53,159 nucleotides of DNA from Candidatus Hydrogenedentota bacterium (GTDB taxonomy: Bacteria > Hydrogenedentota > Hydrogenedentia > Hydrogenedentales > CAITNO01). The position numbers were made by a program, and so were the translations under genes. The notes below the pieces were generated by a model. It worked only from the letters and a program-made list of their open reading frames with translations, searched no databases and was not told the DNA's origin. The number at the start of each line of letters is the position of its first letter. Positions within the stretch are counted from its first letter, which is position 1. Shown piece by piece: positions 33,660-45,887 of this stretch. The stretch spans positions 1 through 53,159 of the forward strand of contig JAKOTZ010000246.1 of assembly GCA_029776995.1 (NCBI GenBank). The letters are read 5' to 3'.

Positions 33660-36600
33660 TCACAGTTCGTCCGGATAGATGTCTGGAACCACCTGAACCG
33701 GGGTGCTCACGGTAAAGTTGACAGTTTTTACCTGGTCCGCCGGATTCGTTGCAGTGGGATCCCGCAGGGTAAATCCAGGGAAAATCATTCGGACTAGAAA
33801 CGCCCGCCAGCCCTGGCCGATTCCGGGGACGTCGACCTCCGCCTCGTACACGTGTTCCGGTTCTTCCGAACAGTCACAGGGATCCAAATCCAGATCCAGG
33901 CAGTTCTGCTCGCATGGGGAATATAACCGTGTCCGCGTCCATGCGGCGCCGAGCACCTGCAGCCGGAAGTCACGGTATTCGGGGTTAAACGCCTGCCACA
34001 ACTGCACGCGGATCGGCTGAACCTCCGTCCGCATGGTTATTCGAACCTTGTTCTCAGACGGAACGGGCGTAATCTGCCAGGTGTAACCGGGAAGGCGCAC
34101 GTCATCTGCCGTGGATCGGTTCCGGTTCAACAGCTGCGCGTAATAAAACGCAAAAATCGAATCGAGCGTGTCGCTGTCCACATCCGTTCCGCTCCCCGTT
34201 AAGCCGTGATCCGTATTGGGGGCGTAGTACAGGTAATTTTCACCGGGTAGCTGATTCCAGTAAAACCGCGACGAATCCGGCAGGAAGAACTGGTCGCCGG
34301 TAGAATTGGCAATCAGTTTGGGCATGGTCAGCCGGCTGGCATACGTAATCGGGTCTACGATTTTCAGCAGAGAGGCGCTTTCCGGAGTGCCAAAACGCTG
34401 GAATACATTCATCTCCACGTAATCCCGAATGGCAGTTGAGTAGCCGCCAAAGATTTTGTACTGGGTGTAATCCGCCGGCGCGTACCCGCTGTACGCCCGA
34501 CGGTGATGCACCATCTGCTGCTCCATATTCAGCACATCAATGACGATGGGCACGGCGGCCACCACGCGGCTGTCAGCCGCGGCGGTAAGCCATGTGGTCC
34601 ATCCGCGTTTGGACGCGCCCACCACTACGAAACCGTCAATGTTAACCGGACTGATCGGCCGCGTCGATGTGTATTCCTGAATGACATCCATGGCCCGCAC
34701 GGCAGCCCGGGTCATCGGAAGCAGTACCGGCCATGTTTTATCAGGCGCATCGTTTTCGTAAGCGGTCAGGTATTTGTCATAACTGTACGCAATAATCGCA
34801 TCTTCAGAGCGGGTTCGCGTCTCGTCTTTAAACTGCAGCGGTTGGTTGGGCACGGCCTGCAGCAGGGCAACAACGCTGTTGGTCAGGCGCGCCGCGTAAG
34901 CGATCACGCTGTCCGCGGAAGAAGGCATCGTTCCCGTGGACCCGCCCGAGATTACCAGCATGGCCGTATTGGCAATTCTGGAAGCATCCACGGGCTCCAC
35001 AACCGTCAGGTAATGGCGCCACACCGGCTGGTACACCTCCGACGCGCCGCGCCAGGTGCCGGAAGTCATTTCGAATATCCTAGCATTCACCCCAAGGCTG
35101 CTCAGGAACAGGCTGTTTCGAAGCCTGTACGAAAACGACGGGTCGCAGCTGTGCACGTACTCATCCAGCACTTCCTCCTCCGGAATATTCAGAGGAGTCT
35201 CCGCCACTGCCGTAACCGACAGTGAATTCGTCTCCAGCAGATTAACGTTGGCCGCCAGGACAATCACTTCCCGGCCGCAGTCCTCGCTGTCGTCCTTAGC
35301 CGTGTTCAGCAGCACCTGGACGGTATCATTCTTCCCGTCGTTGTCCGTGTCTGTAACCACATAGTTCGGATCTTCGAGATCCGGATTGAACAGGCTGACA
35401 CCGGGCAGCCCCGCGATATACACTTTTACCGCCATGGAATTGCCGTCGTCATCCACATTCCAAGACGCTGTGTTGAAAGTTAAGGTAAGCGACGACGTCA
35501 GGGGGCTCAACTGAAACACAAGAGCTCTTGTAGACATGGGCGGAATGTTGTTCAGCAAGGGATAGGTAACGCCGGATACATCCACACTGTCCGTGGCAGA
35601 CTGGAACGGCACTTTGATGAGGGCGTCCGGGTCAAACCGGTCTTCATTCAGGGTATAAGGCGCCCGAACCTCATCGCTGTCCCGCACCGCCGCCGCTTCC
35701 GTGTTTTCGTAGGCCCGATCAAAGGCAAACTGCTGGTAATACTCCCCAAACTTGTGGTCAAGCACCTCATTCAGGACCGTGTATGCCACACCGAGCGCTT
35801 CCGGGTAGAGCAACTCCCTGCCCTCTGACTCCACCTCGTCGAAGGCTTCCCGCAATCCGATCAACATGCCTCCGATCACCACGTACGGGTCAGGAAAACG
35901 GTCCGGATCATTCTGGAAATAAAACAGCAGTTCCTGCCCGGCCTGGGCGTAATCTCTGATGCTGGCGCTGTAGGGCATGAAAATCGGCTGGGACAACCGC
36001 AAAAACTGGCCATCCTCATAAGACCGAGCCCTGGATATCTCCTCGGTATCCTCGCCGATCCACGCGGCACTGGCGCGCCGGAACCCTTCAAGAAAATGAA
36101 TGGGCTTCACTTGTCCGTCCGCGGTTCGGTCTGCCGGAACAGGCAACCCCAGCGCCTGGCTGCCGGTGGTGACGATATTGGGATAGTTATGCCCGCTGTA
36201 CACCCCCTCGAACAGCGCTTCGGCGATCGCATTCGGCGACCGTATGAACCTCAGAAAATCAGATTGGGACGGATCATCCGCGTACCGCGCGGCATTTCCC
36301 TGCGCAATAGACAGCAATGCGGCCGGATCGATAACGATATGGCCGAAGAAGTTATCGTAATACACCGTTCCGGAAAAGGATTCATACCCTGGCGGATAGA
36401 CCCCGCGCATGTTGTAAGCCAGCATGCTGTAACAGTCTTCCAAAACAGTCAGCAGCGGCCGGCGAATCCCCACCGCAGCCAGCGAATCGCTCAGGGTCTG
36501 CGCCGTTGCCATGATCTCCAGGGCAGTTGCGGTCAGTTCAGATTCAGAAAAATTTCTCAGGCCAAAAGATGCCGGATTGGATACGCTTCCGAGCCGCAGG

Positions 36601-37499
36601 GCGGTCAACTGCTGCAACAGCGCCAGGCTGCTGTTGACCTTCCACCAGGTAGCCCATCGGCCGCCAACATACTCCTTGTTGTCCGACTCATCGATATAGT
36701 CCCGGCTTACCAGAGTCCGACTCTCCGGGCGATATACCACGCAGAAATCAGCCCGCGCGGGCATGCGAAGCACTTCCGCCACGGCCATGCCTTCGGCCAC
36801 CCGGGCCGGAATCGGCAGAATCCGCTGGTCTGCCAAGCGGGCCAATACCACTACCTGACCCAGGTCGCCCGCTCCGGTTGGAACGCTTCCCTCAATCAGG
36901 GGAATTCGCAACACCGCGGGACGGGGCGCGCCGTTCAGGATATCCTGGAACAACTCCGGCACTTCATTATTGTGCGAAATGGTATACGTACTGGACGCAT
37001 AACTGGCCAATTCGCCATTGGGAAGCGGAATTGGCGAAGCCGCCTGGGAAATGCCGACCACCAGCTCATTTTTGACCGCCCCGGGCGGCACGGTGAGGGA
37101 GACGCCCAGCGCGGAAACTGTACCACCTTCCGTACCCACGGAATTGAATGAGGTCGGATCTGTCACGCGGATCAGGGATTCCGCCCGGCGGGTAAGATTG
37201 CCCCGGGCTGTCGTGATGGTCAGTGAAACGGTATACACGCCCGGCGTGGTATAAACCTTCACCGGATTGACCATAGTGCTGCCCGTGCCGTCCCCGAAAT
37301 CCCAGGACCAAGCGCGGATGGTGTAGCCGCCCGGCTGGGAGCGATCATAAAACTGCACCTGCAACGGCACAGTGCCATCAGTAACAGATGCCACAAAATC
37401 CAGAATGGGATCCGCCGGCGTAGGAGGTTCCTTGCACCCATGCAGGAGTGCTGCCAATGCCAGTCCGATTGCGATAAAGGCTGTCCACTGCCTGACCAT
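33660..37499 (-). CDS. Giant PKD / PhoPQ-activated-pathogenicity-related (PqaA) lipoprotein
   Basis: About 1279 residues from the ATG at 37499. The lipobox ALLHGC puts lipidated Cys at 22. A PKD domain follows (WSWDFGDGTGS near 64-74), then a ZU5-like segment (GGTVSALGVSLTVPPGA). A long unassigned middle contains a DxDxDG calcium-like loop (DTDNDGKNDTV, near 717). The C-terminal 480 residues belong to the PqaA family (PF10142) and keep an alpha/beta hydrolase triad: Ser963 in GASKRGW, Asp1069 in NSTGDQFF and His1098 in NTDHGL. The C-terminus has a Cys-rich stretch (CEQNCLDLDLDPCDC). It is probably a surface esterase-like protein; the substrate is unknown. An ATG at 37556 with GAGG is an alternative start. 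Confidence 0.8.
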   Translation of the reverse strand: MVRQWTAFIAIGLALAALLHGCKEPPTPADPILDFVASVTDGTVPLQVQFYDRSQPGGYTIRAWSWDFGDGTGSTMVNPVKVYTTPGVYTVSLTITTARGNLTRRAESLIRVTDPTSFNSVGTEGGTVSALGVSLTVPPGAVKNELVVGISQAASPIPLPNGELASYASSTYTISHNNEVPELFQDILNGAPRPAVLRIPLIEGSVPTGAGDLGQVVVLARLADQRILPIPARVAEGMAVAEVLRMPARADFCVVYRPESRTLVSRDYIDESDNKEYVGGRWATWWKVNSSLALLQQLTALRLGSVSNPASFGLRNFSESELTATALEIMATAQTLSDSLAAVGIRRPLLTVLEDCYSMLAYNMRGVYPPGYESFSGTVYYDNFFGHIVIDPAALLSIAQGNAARYADDPSQSDFLRFIRSPNAIAEALFEGVYSGHNYPNIVTTGSQALGLPVPADRTADGQVKPIHFLEGFRRASAAWIGEDTEEISRARSYEDGQFLRLSQPIFMPYSASIRDYAQAGQELLFYFQNDPDRFPDPYVVIGGMLIGLREAFDEVESEGRELLYPEALGVAYTVLNEVLDHKFGEYYQQFAFDRAYENTEAAAVRDSDEVRAPYTLNEDRFDPDALIKVPFQSATDSVDVSGVTYPLLNNIPPMSTRALVFQLSPLTSSLTLTFNTASWNVDDDGNSMAVKVYIAGLPGVSLFNPDLEDPNYVVTDTDNDGKNDTVQVLLNTAKDDSEDCGREVIVLAANVNLLETNSLSVTAVAETPLNIPEEEVLDEYVHSCDPSFSYRLRNSLFLSSLGVNARIFEMTSGTWRGASEVYQPVWRHYLTVVEPVDASRIANTAMLVISGGSTGTMPSSADSVIAYAARLTNSVVALLQAVPNQPLQFKDETRTRSEDAIIAYSYDKYLTAYENDAPDKTWPVLLPMTRAAVRAMDVIQEYTSTRPISPVNIDGFVVVGASKRGWTTWLTAAADSRVVAAVPIVIDVLNMEQQMVHHRRAYSGYAPADYTQYKIFGGYSTAIRDYVEMNVFQRFGTPESASLLKIVDPITYASRLTMPKLIANSTGDQFFLPDSSRFYWNQLPGENYLYYAPNTDHGLTGSGTDVDSDTLDSIFAFYYAQLLNRNRSTADDVRLPGYTWQITPVPSENKVRITMRTEVQPIRVQLWQAFNPEYRDFRLQVLGAAWTRTRLYSPCEQNCLDLDLDPCDCSEEPEHVYEAEVDVPGIGQGWRAFLVRMIFPGFTLRDPTATNPADQVKTVNFTVSTPVQVVPDIYPDEL

Positions 37500-37641
37500 G
37501 TCCGGCACACCTTTCTTCGTTGACGCGCTTCCCTTGGCGCCGCGCATCAGTTTCATACAATACCTCTTACTCCGTCGAACATCACGCGACGGTGACAAAG
37601 ATAAAAATATTGACTGTACCCTATTAGTTTGCGACAAATCG

Positions 37642-39166: not shown

Positions 39167-39898
39167 TCACTCGCTCTTTTTCGTGACCAGTATAGCGGAA
39201 ACGGTTTTGTCCAGCACGGACATATACCGGCTTACCATTTGCTCCGCCTCGTCAGGATCGCCTTTCCGGACCGCCTGGTACACCGCGCGGATCGTTTGCA
39301 GGTTGGTTTCGCTGCCCACCAGCGGAAGGTCGAACATCCGCCGCAACCGGATCAGCAGCCCTCCAAGCGTGTTATAGACCATCCGGTAAACCCGGTTTCC
39401 CGTCGCGTCCACCAACACTTTGTAGTATTCGAGCAGGATTTCCTCCTGCTTATTTTCATCAAGCGTCACGACCAGTTCATCGATCAGCAGTTTCAGCCGG
39501 GCCACGTGTTCATCCGTCCGACGTCGGGTCGCCGACCGTACAATCGCCCGCACAATTGCCTCGCGAAACTCCAGTACGTCCATCAGAAACTTGCCGTCGA
39601 GCCGGTTCTGTTCATCATAAAGCAGCACGTCGAACAGTTTTACGCCTGTGTCAAACTGCATCTGCTGCACATAAATGCCTGAACCCTGGCGGATCCGCAG
39701 CAAGCCTATCGCTTCCAGCCGCTTCAGCGCTTCCCGCACCACGTGCCGCGCAACACCATACTCTTCAGAAAGGGCGCGTTCTGTAGGCAGGCGGCTTCCG
39801 GCAGGAAACTCACCGGACAGAATTCTCCGCCCCAATTTCTCCGTCAACTGTTGTGACAGGGTCCCCCGCCCCGCGGTGACCCGATCCATGTCTTCCAT
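39167..39898 (-). CDS. GntR-family (FadR subfamily) transcriptional regulator
   Basis: 243 residues. A winged helix-turn-helix spans about 15-80 (RILSGEFPAGSRLPTERALS, YGVARHVVREALKRLEAIGL, IRQGSGIYV). The C-terminal helical FCD-like effector domain begins near LEFREAIVRAIVRSA; its metal-ligand His residues are not all obvious. The ATG at 39898 was chosen because AGGA lies 7 bases upstream; the longer frame to 40009 would cross the promoter. It is 48 bases upstream of the enolase-superfamily gene and probably controls it in response to a small acid. Confidence 0.85.
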   Translation of the reverse strand: MEDMDRVTAGRGTLSQQLTEKLGRRILSGEFPAGSRLPTERALSEEYGVARHVVREALKRLEAIGLLRIRQGSGIYVQQMQFDTGVKLFDVLLYDEQNRLDGKFLMDVLEFREAIVRAIVRSATRRRTDEHVARLKLLIDELVVTLDENKQEEILLEYYKVLVDATGNRVYRMVYNTLGGLLIRLRRMFDLPLVGSETNLQTIRAVYQAVRKGDPDEAEQMVSRYMSVLDKTVSAILVTKKSE

Positions 39899-39947
39899 GA
39901 AGAATTCCTTTGCGTCTTCCAACCCCTGATGCCATCTGCCTGACTCT

Positions 39948-39976
39948 ATTTTACCGGCTTGTACGAAAAAAGACAA
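39948..39976 (-). promoter_or_regulatory. Promoter of the GntR gene with an overlapping inverted repeat
   Basis: On the minus strand TTGTCT and TAAAAT lie 17 bases apart. An imperfect inverted repeat (CCGGCTTGT at 39954-39962 with ACAAAACCGG at 39973-39982) covers the spacer and the -35 box, a layout expected of an autorepressor site. Confidence 0.55.
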
Positions 39977-40065
39977 AACCGGCGCGTATTCGAAAAATCC
40001 ATGTAACAACCGCTGGCGGGAATAGTATTGTCCGGAAAATTCACGGCCAAGGGAGTTCGCTGTAA

Positions 40066-40683
40066 ATGAAGCATATAGAAGTTGTCACGGTACCCGGCGG
40101 CGATCCGGAAGCGGAGCGTTTGGAATACGATATCTACCTGGCGGAAGGGTACATTCAGCCGAATCGCCAGAAAAAAGTACTTGAAAACCTTAACTACCCG
40201 AAATTTATCCATTTCGTGGCCCGGCATGAACAGAAGGTGGTCGGATCTCTTCGGCTTGTAGTCGACCCGGTCCCCCGGCACGGCCTGTTCAGATTAAGCT
40301 CCTTTTCCCATTTCCGACTGGAAAACTGGGTGGATCCCCTGCTGAGACAGGTCGGTTTAGAACATGTCGTGGAAGTCGGCACCATGGTGATCCGTCCCGA
40401 ATACCGGGGCAGTGAAACGTATCTGCGCCTTTTTGAAAAGGCATTTGAATACGGACTGATGAGACGTATCCGGGCGGGCATCGCCACCATTGATGCCGGT
40501 TTCTGCGACCGGCTGATACGCCGGGGCATGCCCCTGATCAGCCTTGGCCCCTCTGTTTATTACATGGGATCCGAAACAGTACCCGTGTTGATTGATATGC
40601 CCCGTCTCGTGGCCCGCGTGCTGGGAGACCCGGTGATTGCTCCGCTGCCTCTGCCGGAATTGGCGGGAAAGGAACGCGCCTGA
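40066..40683 (+). CDS. FeeM/autoinducer-synthase-like GNAT acyltransferase
   Basis: 205 residues, GNAT fold of the N-acyl amino acid synthase / acyl-homoserine-lactone synthase type. Visible features are the N-terminal LEYDIYLAEGYI, the substrate strand VGSLRLVVDPV at about 59-69 and the hallmark EVGTMVIRPEYRG at about 103-115. FeeM enzymes join acyl chains from acyl carrier protein to amino acids; the PEP-CTERM-associated relatives have no proven product. The C-terminus ends in a Leu/Pro tail. GGGAG lies 10 bases before the ATG. Its TGA overlaps the next ATG by one base, so the two are coupled. The product is not known. Confidence 0.65.
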   Translation: MKHIEVVTVPGGDPEAERLEYDIYLAEGYIQPNRQKKVLENLNYPKFIHFVARHEQKVVGSLRLVVDPVPRHGLFRLSSFSHFRLENWVDPLLRQVGLEHVVEVGTMVIRPEYRGSETYLRLFEKAFEYGLMRRIRAGIATIDAGFCDRLIRRGMPLISLGPSVYYMGSETVPVLIDMPRLVARVLGDPVIAPLPLPELAGKERA

Positions 40684-41810
40684 TGGCGGTGGGGTCTTAC
40701 GCGGCAAAACAGCGCTGTGAGCGGCACCTTCAGCACCTGGAACGGGCCAACCCCCATCTGCGGAGGATAAACTGGTTCTCAGCGCCTGTTTGCGACGCTC
40801 CCCTGGACCGTCTATGCGGAGTGATACGCGACGCCTGGACCCGGGCTTATGGCGACCGGATCCGCATCGCATACGGACCGGCTCTGTTCCGGCTGGCCCG
40901 CGCGGGGTATCCTGAGGAGAATGGAATCATTTCCTGGGCAGAGGAGGATGGCAGCCCATGCGGGGTGATTGTCGGCCTGCCCCTGCAGTTCGAAACAGAG
41001 GGGTCTAAGGAAAATGTCCCTGCCACCCTGACCACAGGACTCTCCTGCAGCGCTGAATGGGAAGGGCGGGGCATGGTGGAAATGCTTATGGCCCGCCACG
41101 CCGTAACGCTGATGGAACGCGGCCATTCTTTCAGCATTCACTGGCGCGCCACGGAAACCCAGTCCGTCAGCGGCACGGCCCGACTTTCCCGCGCCAGGAT
41201 AACGCGGCTGCTGGGACGCGCGATACGGCCATCCGTCGCCGCCCGCCGCGCGGGTTCAGGGTTTTGGGCCAGGCTGGGCATTAGGCTGCACGCCGCATGG
41301 TACCCTTCGGGAAAACCGTTACCTCCTTCGTGGAGTATGGAAATTAATTCTTCTTCCGCGGTCTTTAACGCATCGCGCCTCATCCGGACATGTTTTACCC
41401 GCCAAACCCCCAGGCGCCATTACCCGGCAGGTTATTTCCATACCCTATCCAAGTTCACCGCGGAAGGCATACAGGGTGTGGTTGCCGTTTTTCGGGAAGG
41501 CGCGGAACCCGCAGGAGTCATATGGGGATGCATCAATCCCACCGCCGGTGACGCTTTTTTTCTGCTGGACGGCATGGTCTTCCATCCGGAAGCCCCGGCC
41601 CACTGGCGCTGGCGCGCGCTGTCTTTCCTGGATGGATACCTCAAAGAAAAAAATGTATTCGCCACGCTGGCCCCGGAATCCGCGTTCTTTCCGGACGTTC
41701 CTCCGGGATGGCTCTGCCTGAAACGTTACGCAGTCGGCGCCATTCCCTTTGAACCGGTGTCGTGGCTCACGCCGGAATGGCTGTCGGGGATTCCCCTGGA
41801 ACTGCGTTAA
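40683..41810 (+). CDS. GNAT-like protein coupled to the FeeM-like gene
   Basis: 375 residues, not matched to a named family. The first half looks like a GNAT domain (DAWTRAYGDRIRIAYG, CGVIVGLPLQF, CSAEWEGRGMVEMLMARHAV, where EWEGRGM is the position of the acyl-CoA loop). The second half repeats the style (GVVAVFREGAEPAGVIWGC, DAFFLLDGMVFHPEAPAHWR), so it may be a double-GNAT protein. A link of Arg-rich sequence (RLSRARITRLLGRAIRPSVA) joins the halves. It is coupled to the FeeM-like gene by a TGATG overlap and shares the TTAA at its end with the convergent DAHP synthase gene. Function unknown. Confidence 0.6.
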   Translation: MAVGSYAAKQRCERHLQHLERANPHLRRINWFSAPVCDAPLDRLCGVIRDAWTRAYGDRIRIAYGPALFRLARAGYPEENGIISWAEEDGSPCGVIVGLPLQFETEGSKENVPATLTTGLSCSAEWEGRGMVEMLMARHAVTLMERGHSFSIHWRATETQSVSGTARLSRARITRLLGRAIRPSVAARRAGSGFWARLGIRLHAAWYPSGKPLPPSWSMEINSSSAVFNASRLIRTCFTRQTPRRHYPAGYFHTLSKFTAEGIQGVVAVFREGAEPAGVIWGCINPTAGDAFFLLDGMVFHPEAPAHWRWRALSFLDGYLKEKNVFATLAPESAFFPDVPPGWLCLKRYAVGAIPFEPVSWLTPEWLSGIPLELR

Positions 41811-44621: not shown

Positions 44622-45887
44622 ATGCGCAGGAGTCGGGTTTTTCAAATTTGGGGGATGCCTTTCCCCGAAACCAGTATTTTTATGCTGTTTCTGGTCATGC
44701 TGTTCGGCTATGCCTACTGCGCGGACCAGTATCCCGAGGCGGGCGTGCAGGTGCTTCAGCGCCCTTACCTTACCTGGGAAGGGAATCCAGACACTTCAGT
44801 GACCATCAACTGGCAAACGGATAAAGCCCTGAAAAAAGTGGAAGTCCGTTACGGTTCTGAACCCGCCCAGGGTTCCACCAAGAAATATCAGTACAAAGCT
44901 GCCGGAGTAAGCCGCACCATTGACGGCATGCCGGAACCCCGCTGGATCCACTCCGTCACCCTGACCGGGCTGCAGCCGGCAACCGACTATTACTTTATAT
45001 ACGGCGACGGCAAAAAATTTTCCAAAACTGAGTACCGCTTCCGCACCATGGGCAGCGGAGATATGCCGTTCACTTTTGTCATCGGCGGCGACATGGGCCC
45101 CGGACCCAGAACCCGAAAACTGGTTAAAGCCGTCGCTTCCCGGAATCCCGCCTTCGCGGTGGTGGGCGGTGATATCCATTATGAAAATGGAGTGATCCGA
45201 AATTTCCGCGTCTGTGACATGTGGCTCGACATCTGGCTGGATGACATGGTGGACGCCGACGGGCGGCTTATTCCCATGGTACACGCCATCGGAAACCACG
45301 AAGTAAATAAAGAGGTGCCTCCGTCGGAACCCGTCGAAAAGCGCGCGCCTTTCTATTTCGGATATTACCCACAGGGTGGAAAAACCTTCTTCACGCGCGA
45401 TCTGGGTTCTTTGGCCCGGCTTGTGATTCTGGATTCCGGGCATATCATCCCTCACGCGGAACAGGTTGACTGGCTGAAATCTCAGTTGAGCTCAAGCGAA
45501 AACCGCTGGATCCTGCCTGTGTATCACGTGCCTTTTTATCCCAGCCACCGGGAATTTGACGGCGAACCCTCCGCTTTGGGCCGAACCCACTGGATGCCGC
45601 TGTTCGAAGCAGCCAATGTCCGGGTCGCGTTTGAGCATCATGACCACACGTTCAAGCGCACAAAACCGGTCAAAGCCGGAGTGGTAGACCCTAACGGCAT
45701 TACCTATCTGGGCGACGGATGCTTCGGCAGGGAACCGCGCGAAATTAAAAATGGCGATGCCTGGTACATGGAAAAAGCGCTGTCAACCGCGCATTTTTGG
45801 GTGGTTGACGTTCGGCAGGACCAGCTCCATTGCGTCGCCGTCGATGAAGAAAACCGGGAATTTGACACCGTAACCGTATCCCGCTGA
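44622..45887 (+). CDS. Purple-acid-phosphatase-like exported metallophosphatase
   Basis: 421 residues. A hydrophobic N-terminal stretch (IFMLFLVMLFGYAYC) is a signal peptide or lipoprotein-like anchor. An N-terminal fibronectin-III-like domain (about 45-145: NPDTSVTINWQTDKALKKVE, LTGLQPATDYYFIYGDG) precedes the metallophosphoesterase domain, where VIGGDMGPG, VVGGDIHYENG, AIGNHEVN, PVYHVPFYP and FEHHDHTFKRT carry the two-metal ligands. It probably releases phosphate from organic esters outside the cytoplasm. It is 31 bases after the pilC-like gene, with a weak link to it. Confidence 0.87.
   Translation: MRRSRVFQIWGMPFPETSIFMLFLVMLFGYAYCADQYPEAGVQVLQRPYLTWEGNPDTSVTINWQTDKALKKVEVRYGSEPAQGSTKKYQYKAAGVSRTIDGMPEPRWIHSVTLTGLQPATDYYFIYGDGKKFSKTEYRFRTMGSGDMPFTFVIGGDMGPGPRTRKLVKAVASRNPAFAVVGGDIHYENGVIRNFRVCDMWLDIWLDDMVDADGRLIPMVHAIGNHEVNKEVPPSEPVEKRAPFYFGYYPQGGKTFFTRDLGSLARLVILDSGHIIPHAEQVDWLKSQLSSSENRWILPVYHVPFYPSHREFDGEPSALGRTHWMPLFEAANVRVAFEHHDHTFKRTKPVKAGVVDPNGITYLGDGCFGREPREIKNGDAWYMEKALSTAHFWVVDVRQDQLHCVAVDEENREFDTVTVSR

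Follow-up and report, generated by a model that had tools for sequence, protein, structure and literature searches.

The locus studied here raises the question of what is made by two overlapping genes, A and B, of a Candidatus Hydrogenedentota bacterium, and whether their products act together. The window, by which we mean the whole stretch of DNA analysed, comprises 53,159 nucleotides. An earlier reading made from the letters of the window alone (the sequence-only reading) had taken the first protein for an acyltransferase resembling FeeM and the autoinducer synthases, had described the second as lacking a named family and perhaps holding two GNAT domains, and had suggested that the pair makes and modifies an acylated signal or lipid.

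Locus organisation and coding status

The features of the locus are listed in Table 1. Both reading frames were found on the forward strand as the sequence-only reading had described them, and so was the TGATG overlap held to couple them. The Shine-Dalgarno-like sequence ahead of A recurs, as AAGGGAG or AAGGAG, before A in L021, L023, L025 and L026, other genera included. Between two species of the window's genus, dN/dS was about 0.08 for A (dS 2.4, dN 0.20) and about 0.22 for B (dS 1.6, dN 0.35), and in two other genera it was 0.11-0.15 for A and 0.19-0.20 for B. Since dN/dS is low in three genera, A and B are real genes, both under purifying selection.

Table 1. Features of the A-B locus and of its surroundings in the window (positions are those of the window).
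Feature	Position	Strand	Basis
Protein of 1325 aa with PKD and PhoPQ-activated-pathogenicity-related domains	33660..37637	-	PF10142, 2e-102
GntR/FCD regulator, divergent from A	39170..40009	-	weak FadR_C similarity
AAGGGAG, Shine-Dalgarno-like, 10 bases upstream of A	40049..40055	+	read from sequence
Gene A, 205 aa: FeeM / acyl-homoserine-lactone-synthase-fold N-acyltransferase	40066..40683	+	Pfam profile, AlphaFold2, Foldseek
EVGTMVIRPEYRG motif of A, residues 103-115	40372..40410	+	GTMVI and RG invariant in nine homologues
AAAGGA, possible ribosome-binding site of B, within the 3' end of A	40668..40673	+	sequence; inferred
TGATG, stop of A overlapping start of B, the single shared base being the A at 40683	40681..40685	+	frames and sequence
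Gene B, 375 aa: NMT-type double-GNAT acyltransferase-like protein	40683..41810	+	AlphaFold2, Foldseek; no Pfam/NCBIfam family over cut-off
L-E-L-R, C-terminal end of B	41796..41807	+	flush, near-invariant in 9/9 homologues
Purple-acid-phosphatase-like protein, signal-like N-terminal stretch	44622..45887	+	

Family and fold of protein A

The Pfam FeeM profile (PF21926) matched the window's A at 6.5e-14 (52.5 bits, with a cut-off of 27); it scored over its cut-off in all nine A homologues and was the best-scoring family in each of them. PF13444 was also over its cut-off in A, and similarity to Acetyltransf_1 stayed below threshold. When the AlphaFold2 model of A (pLDDT 87.5) was searched with Foldseek, the top nine matches were all acyl-homoserine-lactone (AHL) synthases (LasI, BjaI, MesI, RpaI and TofI), LasI being the best (1.6e-10), and FeeM (2g0b) ranked after them at 3.7e-6. 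By profile and by predicted fold, A belongs to the FeeM/autoinducer-synthase superfamily, as had been proposed; an assignment to an ordinary acetyltransferase family, which would have told against the proposal, was not obtained.

Both motifs previously quoted for A, EVGTMVIRPEYRG and VGSLRLVVDPV (residues 59-69), are present. A closely conserved stretch in the nine homologues reads G-T-M-V-I ... R-G and is followed by Y-M-G-S-x-T-x-P; its G-T-M signature marks the A group, because the more distant FeeM-profile matches of the phylum (L065, L067, L068 and L069) have E-[VIL]-G-R at that place. In genus g36, a FeeM-profile domain was observed at the N-terminus of a protein of about 590-620 residues (L063:4160-5920 and L064:320-2179), whose C-terminal part resembles, by eye, a class-V aminotransferase, a possible acyltransferase-aminotransferase fusion.

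With LasI, BjaI, MesI and RpaI as its nearest folds, A might be a LuxI-type synthase of a homoserine-lactone quorum signal that is then tailored by B. Autoinducer synthases carry an E-x-S-R motif. This motif is absent from A, the homologues reading E/Q-x-G-T-M and the window's A EVGTM. The LuxI profile PF00765 (Autoind_synth) gave a weak match in three of the nine A homologues (best 0.0082), the window's A not among them, and was outscored by the FeeM profile by many orders of magnitude. The LuxR autoinducer-binding domain was detected in control E. coli and in none of 12 related genomes, and a quorum signal as the product is unlikely; a LuxI-type synthase in A is highly improbable.

The profile TIGR03694, of the acyltransferase of PEP-CTERM/exosortase systems, was likewise brought to bear on A, and a link between some N-acyl amino acid synthases and exosortase loci is cited in PMC11631085. 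The similarity of A to this profile is weak (14 bits, against a cut-off of 112); A falls within neither of the two families, LuxI and PEP-CTERM-associated, to which the sequence-only reading had directed attention. An exosortase was found over its cut-off in only three of 12 related genomes, most carriers of the pair, the window's genome included, being without one, and a role for A in an exosortase system is largely refuted.

Predicted fold of protein B

None of the Pfam and NCBIfam models scored over its cut-off with B, which is weakly similar to Acetyltransf_9, and searches of PDB sequences with B, alone and as a profile, returned nothing. The N-terminal and C-terminal halves of B are weakly alike (hhalign P = 0.005), and the AlphaFold2 model (pLDDT 84.8) has a full-length double-GNAT fold, in agreement with the two GNAT domains suspected earlier in a protein of no named family.

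In a Foldseek search of the PDB, the best 50 matches of B were all N-myristoyltransferases (NMTs), at 1.3e-13 to 2.1e-12 and with TM scores of 0.6-0.7 over about 370 columns. Because the PDB chains of NMT far outnumber those of other double GNATs, this list alone is no proof that NMT is the nearest fold, and non-NMT double GNATs could rank just below the best 50. The viral library is the cleaner comparison: there giant-virus NMTs made up most of the named top matches (1.8e-14 to 3.6e-11), with other phage double GNATs reaching only about 1e-7 to 1e-5 at TM scores below 0.5. On its modelled structure, B is an NMT-type double GNAT, best matched by the eukaryotic enzyme. The superfamily of A and the double-GNAT nature of B stand as the sequence-only reading had them; the NMT-type fold of B had been missed.

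Profile comparisons were made with hhalign. A yeast NMT sequence served as the starting query, and the NMT sequences aligned afterwards were those of PDB chains. The B alignment scored 34.5 against three fungal NMTs (P = 9e-4; 0.00089), whereas none of 200 column shuffles exceeded 27.3 and reversal gave 13.5. Without confidence masking, B and NMT aligned collinearly to both C-termini, with little signal in the C-terminal third. The Pfam NMT and NMT_C models reached at best 18.3 bits (cut-off 25) in one B homologue, gave no match in the window's B and were over cut-off in none of the 68 Hydrogenedentota genomes. B also aligned with a generic double GNAT of 351 residues from another Hydrogenedentota family (L061:5863-6918 and L062:1026-2081) at 32.6 (P = 0.0013), and this protein, a further bacterial NMT-like candidate, aligned with fungal NMT better than B did (54.4, P = 6.6e-7). 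The profile matches of B were therefore given less weight as evidence for NMT. At the level of sequence the similarity of B to NMT is weak and not specific to it; because it speaks for double-GNAT kinship and not for NMT in particular, the NMT-type assignment rests on the structure and on the C-terminus. The P-loop of B has Glu where GNATs usually have Gln or Arg, and binding of CoA is for this reason uncertain.

The same structural matches bear on the order in which the two proteins might act. B could come first, building or loading the acceptor, for example with an amino acid taken from aminoacyl-tRNA in the manner of FemX, and A could then cap it with a fatty acyl group; FemX is a transferase with two GNAT domains that depends on aminoacyl-tRNA (PMC12945691), and GNATs of this type are found in natural-product pathways. 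No Fem-type protein was found among the best 50 PDB matches of B, however, and the single viral FemAB match scored 7.8e-6, as against 1.8e-14 for NMT, which leaves this order of events distinctly unlikely.

C-terminus of protein B

All nine B proteins finish at one alignment column in L-x-L-R, with no variation in length, unlike the ends of A, which vary among homologues. The last four columns form one of only four 4-column windows with at least three invariant residues in the nine proteins. In the predicted structure about 20 residues follow the last strand, which ends near residue 355. NMT is described as alone among GNATs in using its C-terminal carboxylate as catalytic base (PMC4964394), and the defining feature given for NMT-type double GNATs is that their C-terminus reaches into the active site (the 2025 HisAT paper, PMC12219266). 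By analogy, the flush, conserved end of B fits an NMT-like carboxylate base, which is predicted here.

Taken with the full-length NMT fold predicted for B, this C-terminus could also point to a true bacterial counterpart of NMT, acylating the N-terminus of a protein or peptide (its glycine, as in eukaryotes), with A making, channelling, supplying or modifying the acyl donor. If true, this would be a native bacterial N-acylation system with a eukaryotic fold and a carboxylate mechanism. Against it stand the Pfam NMT scores given above, the lack of conservation of the genes adjoining the pair, so that no partner protein is visible, and the use of an Lnt-like enzyme in the bacterial glycine acylation reported so far (PMC7943197); we regard it as very unlikely.

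Conservation and genomic setting of the pair

A single-sequence search of 60 relatives found A in nine genomes, all of the window's family. B was present in exactly those nine, or 9 of the 17 genomes of the family, and a B profile found no further carriers among all 68 Hydrogenedentota genomes. In a scan of genome contigs with A, of a kind that picks up close relatives only, the closest named match was a Hydrogenedentota MAG with a homologue at 72% identity. The chance of two genes matching in a 9/8 split of presence and absence is 1 in 24,310 if the genomes are independent, a figure that is overstated because the carriers are related and the counts of co-conservation are not independent. Pairwise distances of A and B were correlated across the nine homologue pairs (r = 0.90; Mantel-type permutation p = 2e-4).

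The two genes are adjacent, in the order A then B and on one strand, in all nine carriers, overlapping by one base at the closest and separated by about 10 at the widest. A TGATG-type overlap is repeated in L021, and gaps of about 3-10 bases are found in other genera. The survey of the pair that had been proposed shows A and B kept together in the same nine genomes; a pair not kept together, which would have counted against the earlier reading, was not what was found. Comparison of neighbours revealed no third gene common to all carriers beyond the genus: depending on the genus, the pair lies beside an MFS transporter and a TPR protein, SecA and a sugar-isomerase-like protein, a PASTA/FGE-sulfatase protein, or others. 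Because the neighbours differ between genera, the A-B pair is the unit.

As had been noted, no gene for a LuxR-type regulator or an exosortase lies beside the pair; the gene closest to it, transcribed divergently, encodes a GntR/FCD regulator that is conserved within the genus only. This regulator shows weak FadR_C similarity and might be responsive to acyl compounds. Next to A, no gene for an acyl carrier protein was recognised. The window also encodes the 1325-residue PKD-domain protein of Table 1, which has a counterpart in the sister species, and the purple-acid-phosphatase-like protein. A plasmid collection searched with A and with B gave no match, no relative turned up in viral contigs with either B or NMT profiles as the query, and an anti-phage defence library returned nothing for B and only a meaningless 0.02 for A.

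Proposed function

Among the enzymes grouped with A, the known ones attach fatty acyl chains to amino groups, generally with acyl-ACP as the donor, and the enzymes with which B groups acylate amines where two GNAT halves meet. Consecutive steps by A and B are suggested by their coupled translation and strict co-occurrence. We tentatively propose, with a probability of about 0.42, that the two genes form a translationally coupled cassette in which A N-acylates an amino acid and B puts a second group on the product of A. Acyl carrier protein would supply A with a fatty acyl chain, which A would transfer to an amino acid or amine at its amino group. In B, an acyl thioester would occupy the N-terminal half and the acceptor would lie between the halves; with the C-terminal carboxylate serving as base, as in NMT, B would add a second acyl group to the product of A or to a partner amine. 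The two steps would yield an acylated amino-acid lipid or amide, a logic like that of OlsB and OlsA with a double GNAT as the second enzyme. More broadly, A and B together probably make an undescribed lipid-modified molecule, the chemistry being deduced from their relatives.

The pair might instead be ordinary short-chain (acetyl) transferases acting on a metabolite or an antibiotic-like amine, the long-acyl appearance reflecting the shared fold only. GNAT folds are widely reused, the Acetyltransf_1 and Acetyltransf_9 similarities of A and B point the same way, and the double GNAT HisAT prefers short acyl-CoAs, though it takes myristoyl-CoA too (PMC12219266). FeeM is nevertheless the best family for all nine A homologues, the top nine folds for A are all AHL synthases, and the best structural matches of B are long-chain transferases; short-chain transfer is accordingly judged unlikely.

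Comparison with known systems

The cassette proposed here, two successive acylations by A and B, can be set beside several described systems. A shares with FeeM and the N-acyl amino acid synthases (PF21926; PDB 2G0B) the profile, found in 9/9 homologues, and the fold, but it is structurally somewhat nearer to the AHL synthases and is paired with a double GNAT. TyzA/OxzA of the oxazolone-type lipid clusters is, like A, an acyltransferase with FeeM and BjaI as nearest folds that is encoded with product-modifying enzymes; the partners there include a nitroreductase-family enzyme, whereas here the partner is a double GNAT (PMC10404671). In OlsB/OlsA and related aminolipid pairs, as in A-B, two genes are adjacent and the first encodes an N-acyltransferase of a related GNAT family (PF13444), but the second enzyme is a PlsC-type O-acyltransferase and not a double GNAT (PMC11631085).

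Eukaryotic NMT and the NMT-type double GNATs of bacteria and archaea (PMC12219266) resemble B in their full-length double-GNAT fold and in a conserved C-terminal segment, constant in length, after the last strand; B differs in being only 10-13% identical to NMT, in lacking the NMT motifs EINFLC and KFGxGDG, and in staying below the cut-offs of the NMT Pfam models. NpuN and other bacterial tandem-GNAT lipid transferases of lanthipeptides share the tandem arrangement with B and accept long acyl-CoAs (PMC13060382). The nearest solved fold reported for NpuN is a single-domain acetyltransferase, and NpuN acts on a ribosomal peptide (PMC13060382); no precursor peptide gene is evident at the A-B locus.

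Novelty and significance

NMT-type structures were predicted in bacteria and archaea in 2025, against the earlier view of NMT as eukaryotic (PMC12219266). No description of a FeeM-type gene paired with an NMT-type double GNAT was found in the open-licence papers searched, and the A-B pairing appears undescribed, bacterial NMT-type folds as such being already on record. Reports long placed NMT in eukaryotes only, and its bacterial fold relatives have been noticed only recently, without a function. In a phylum about which little is known, the A-B pair may also produce a new lipid.
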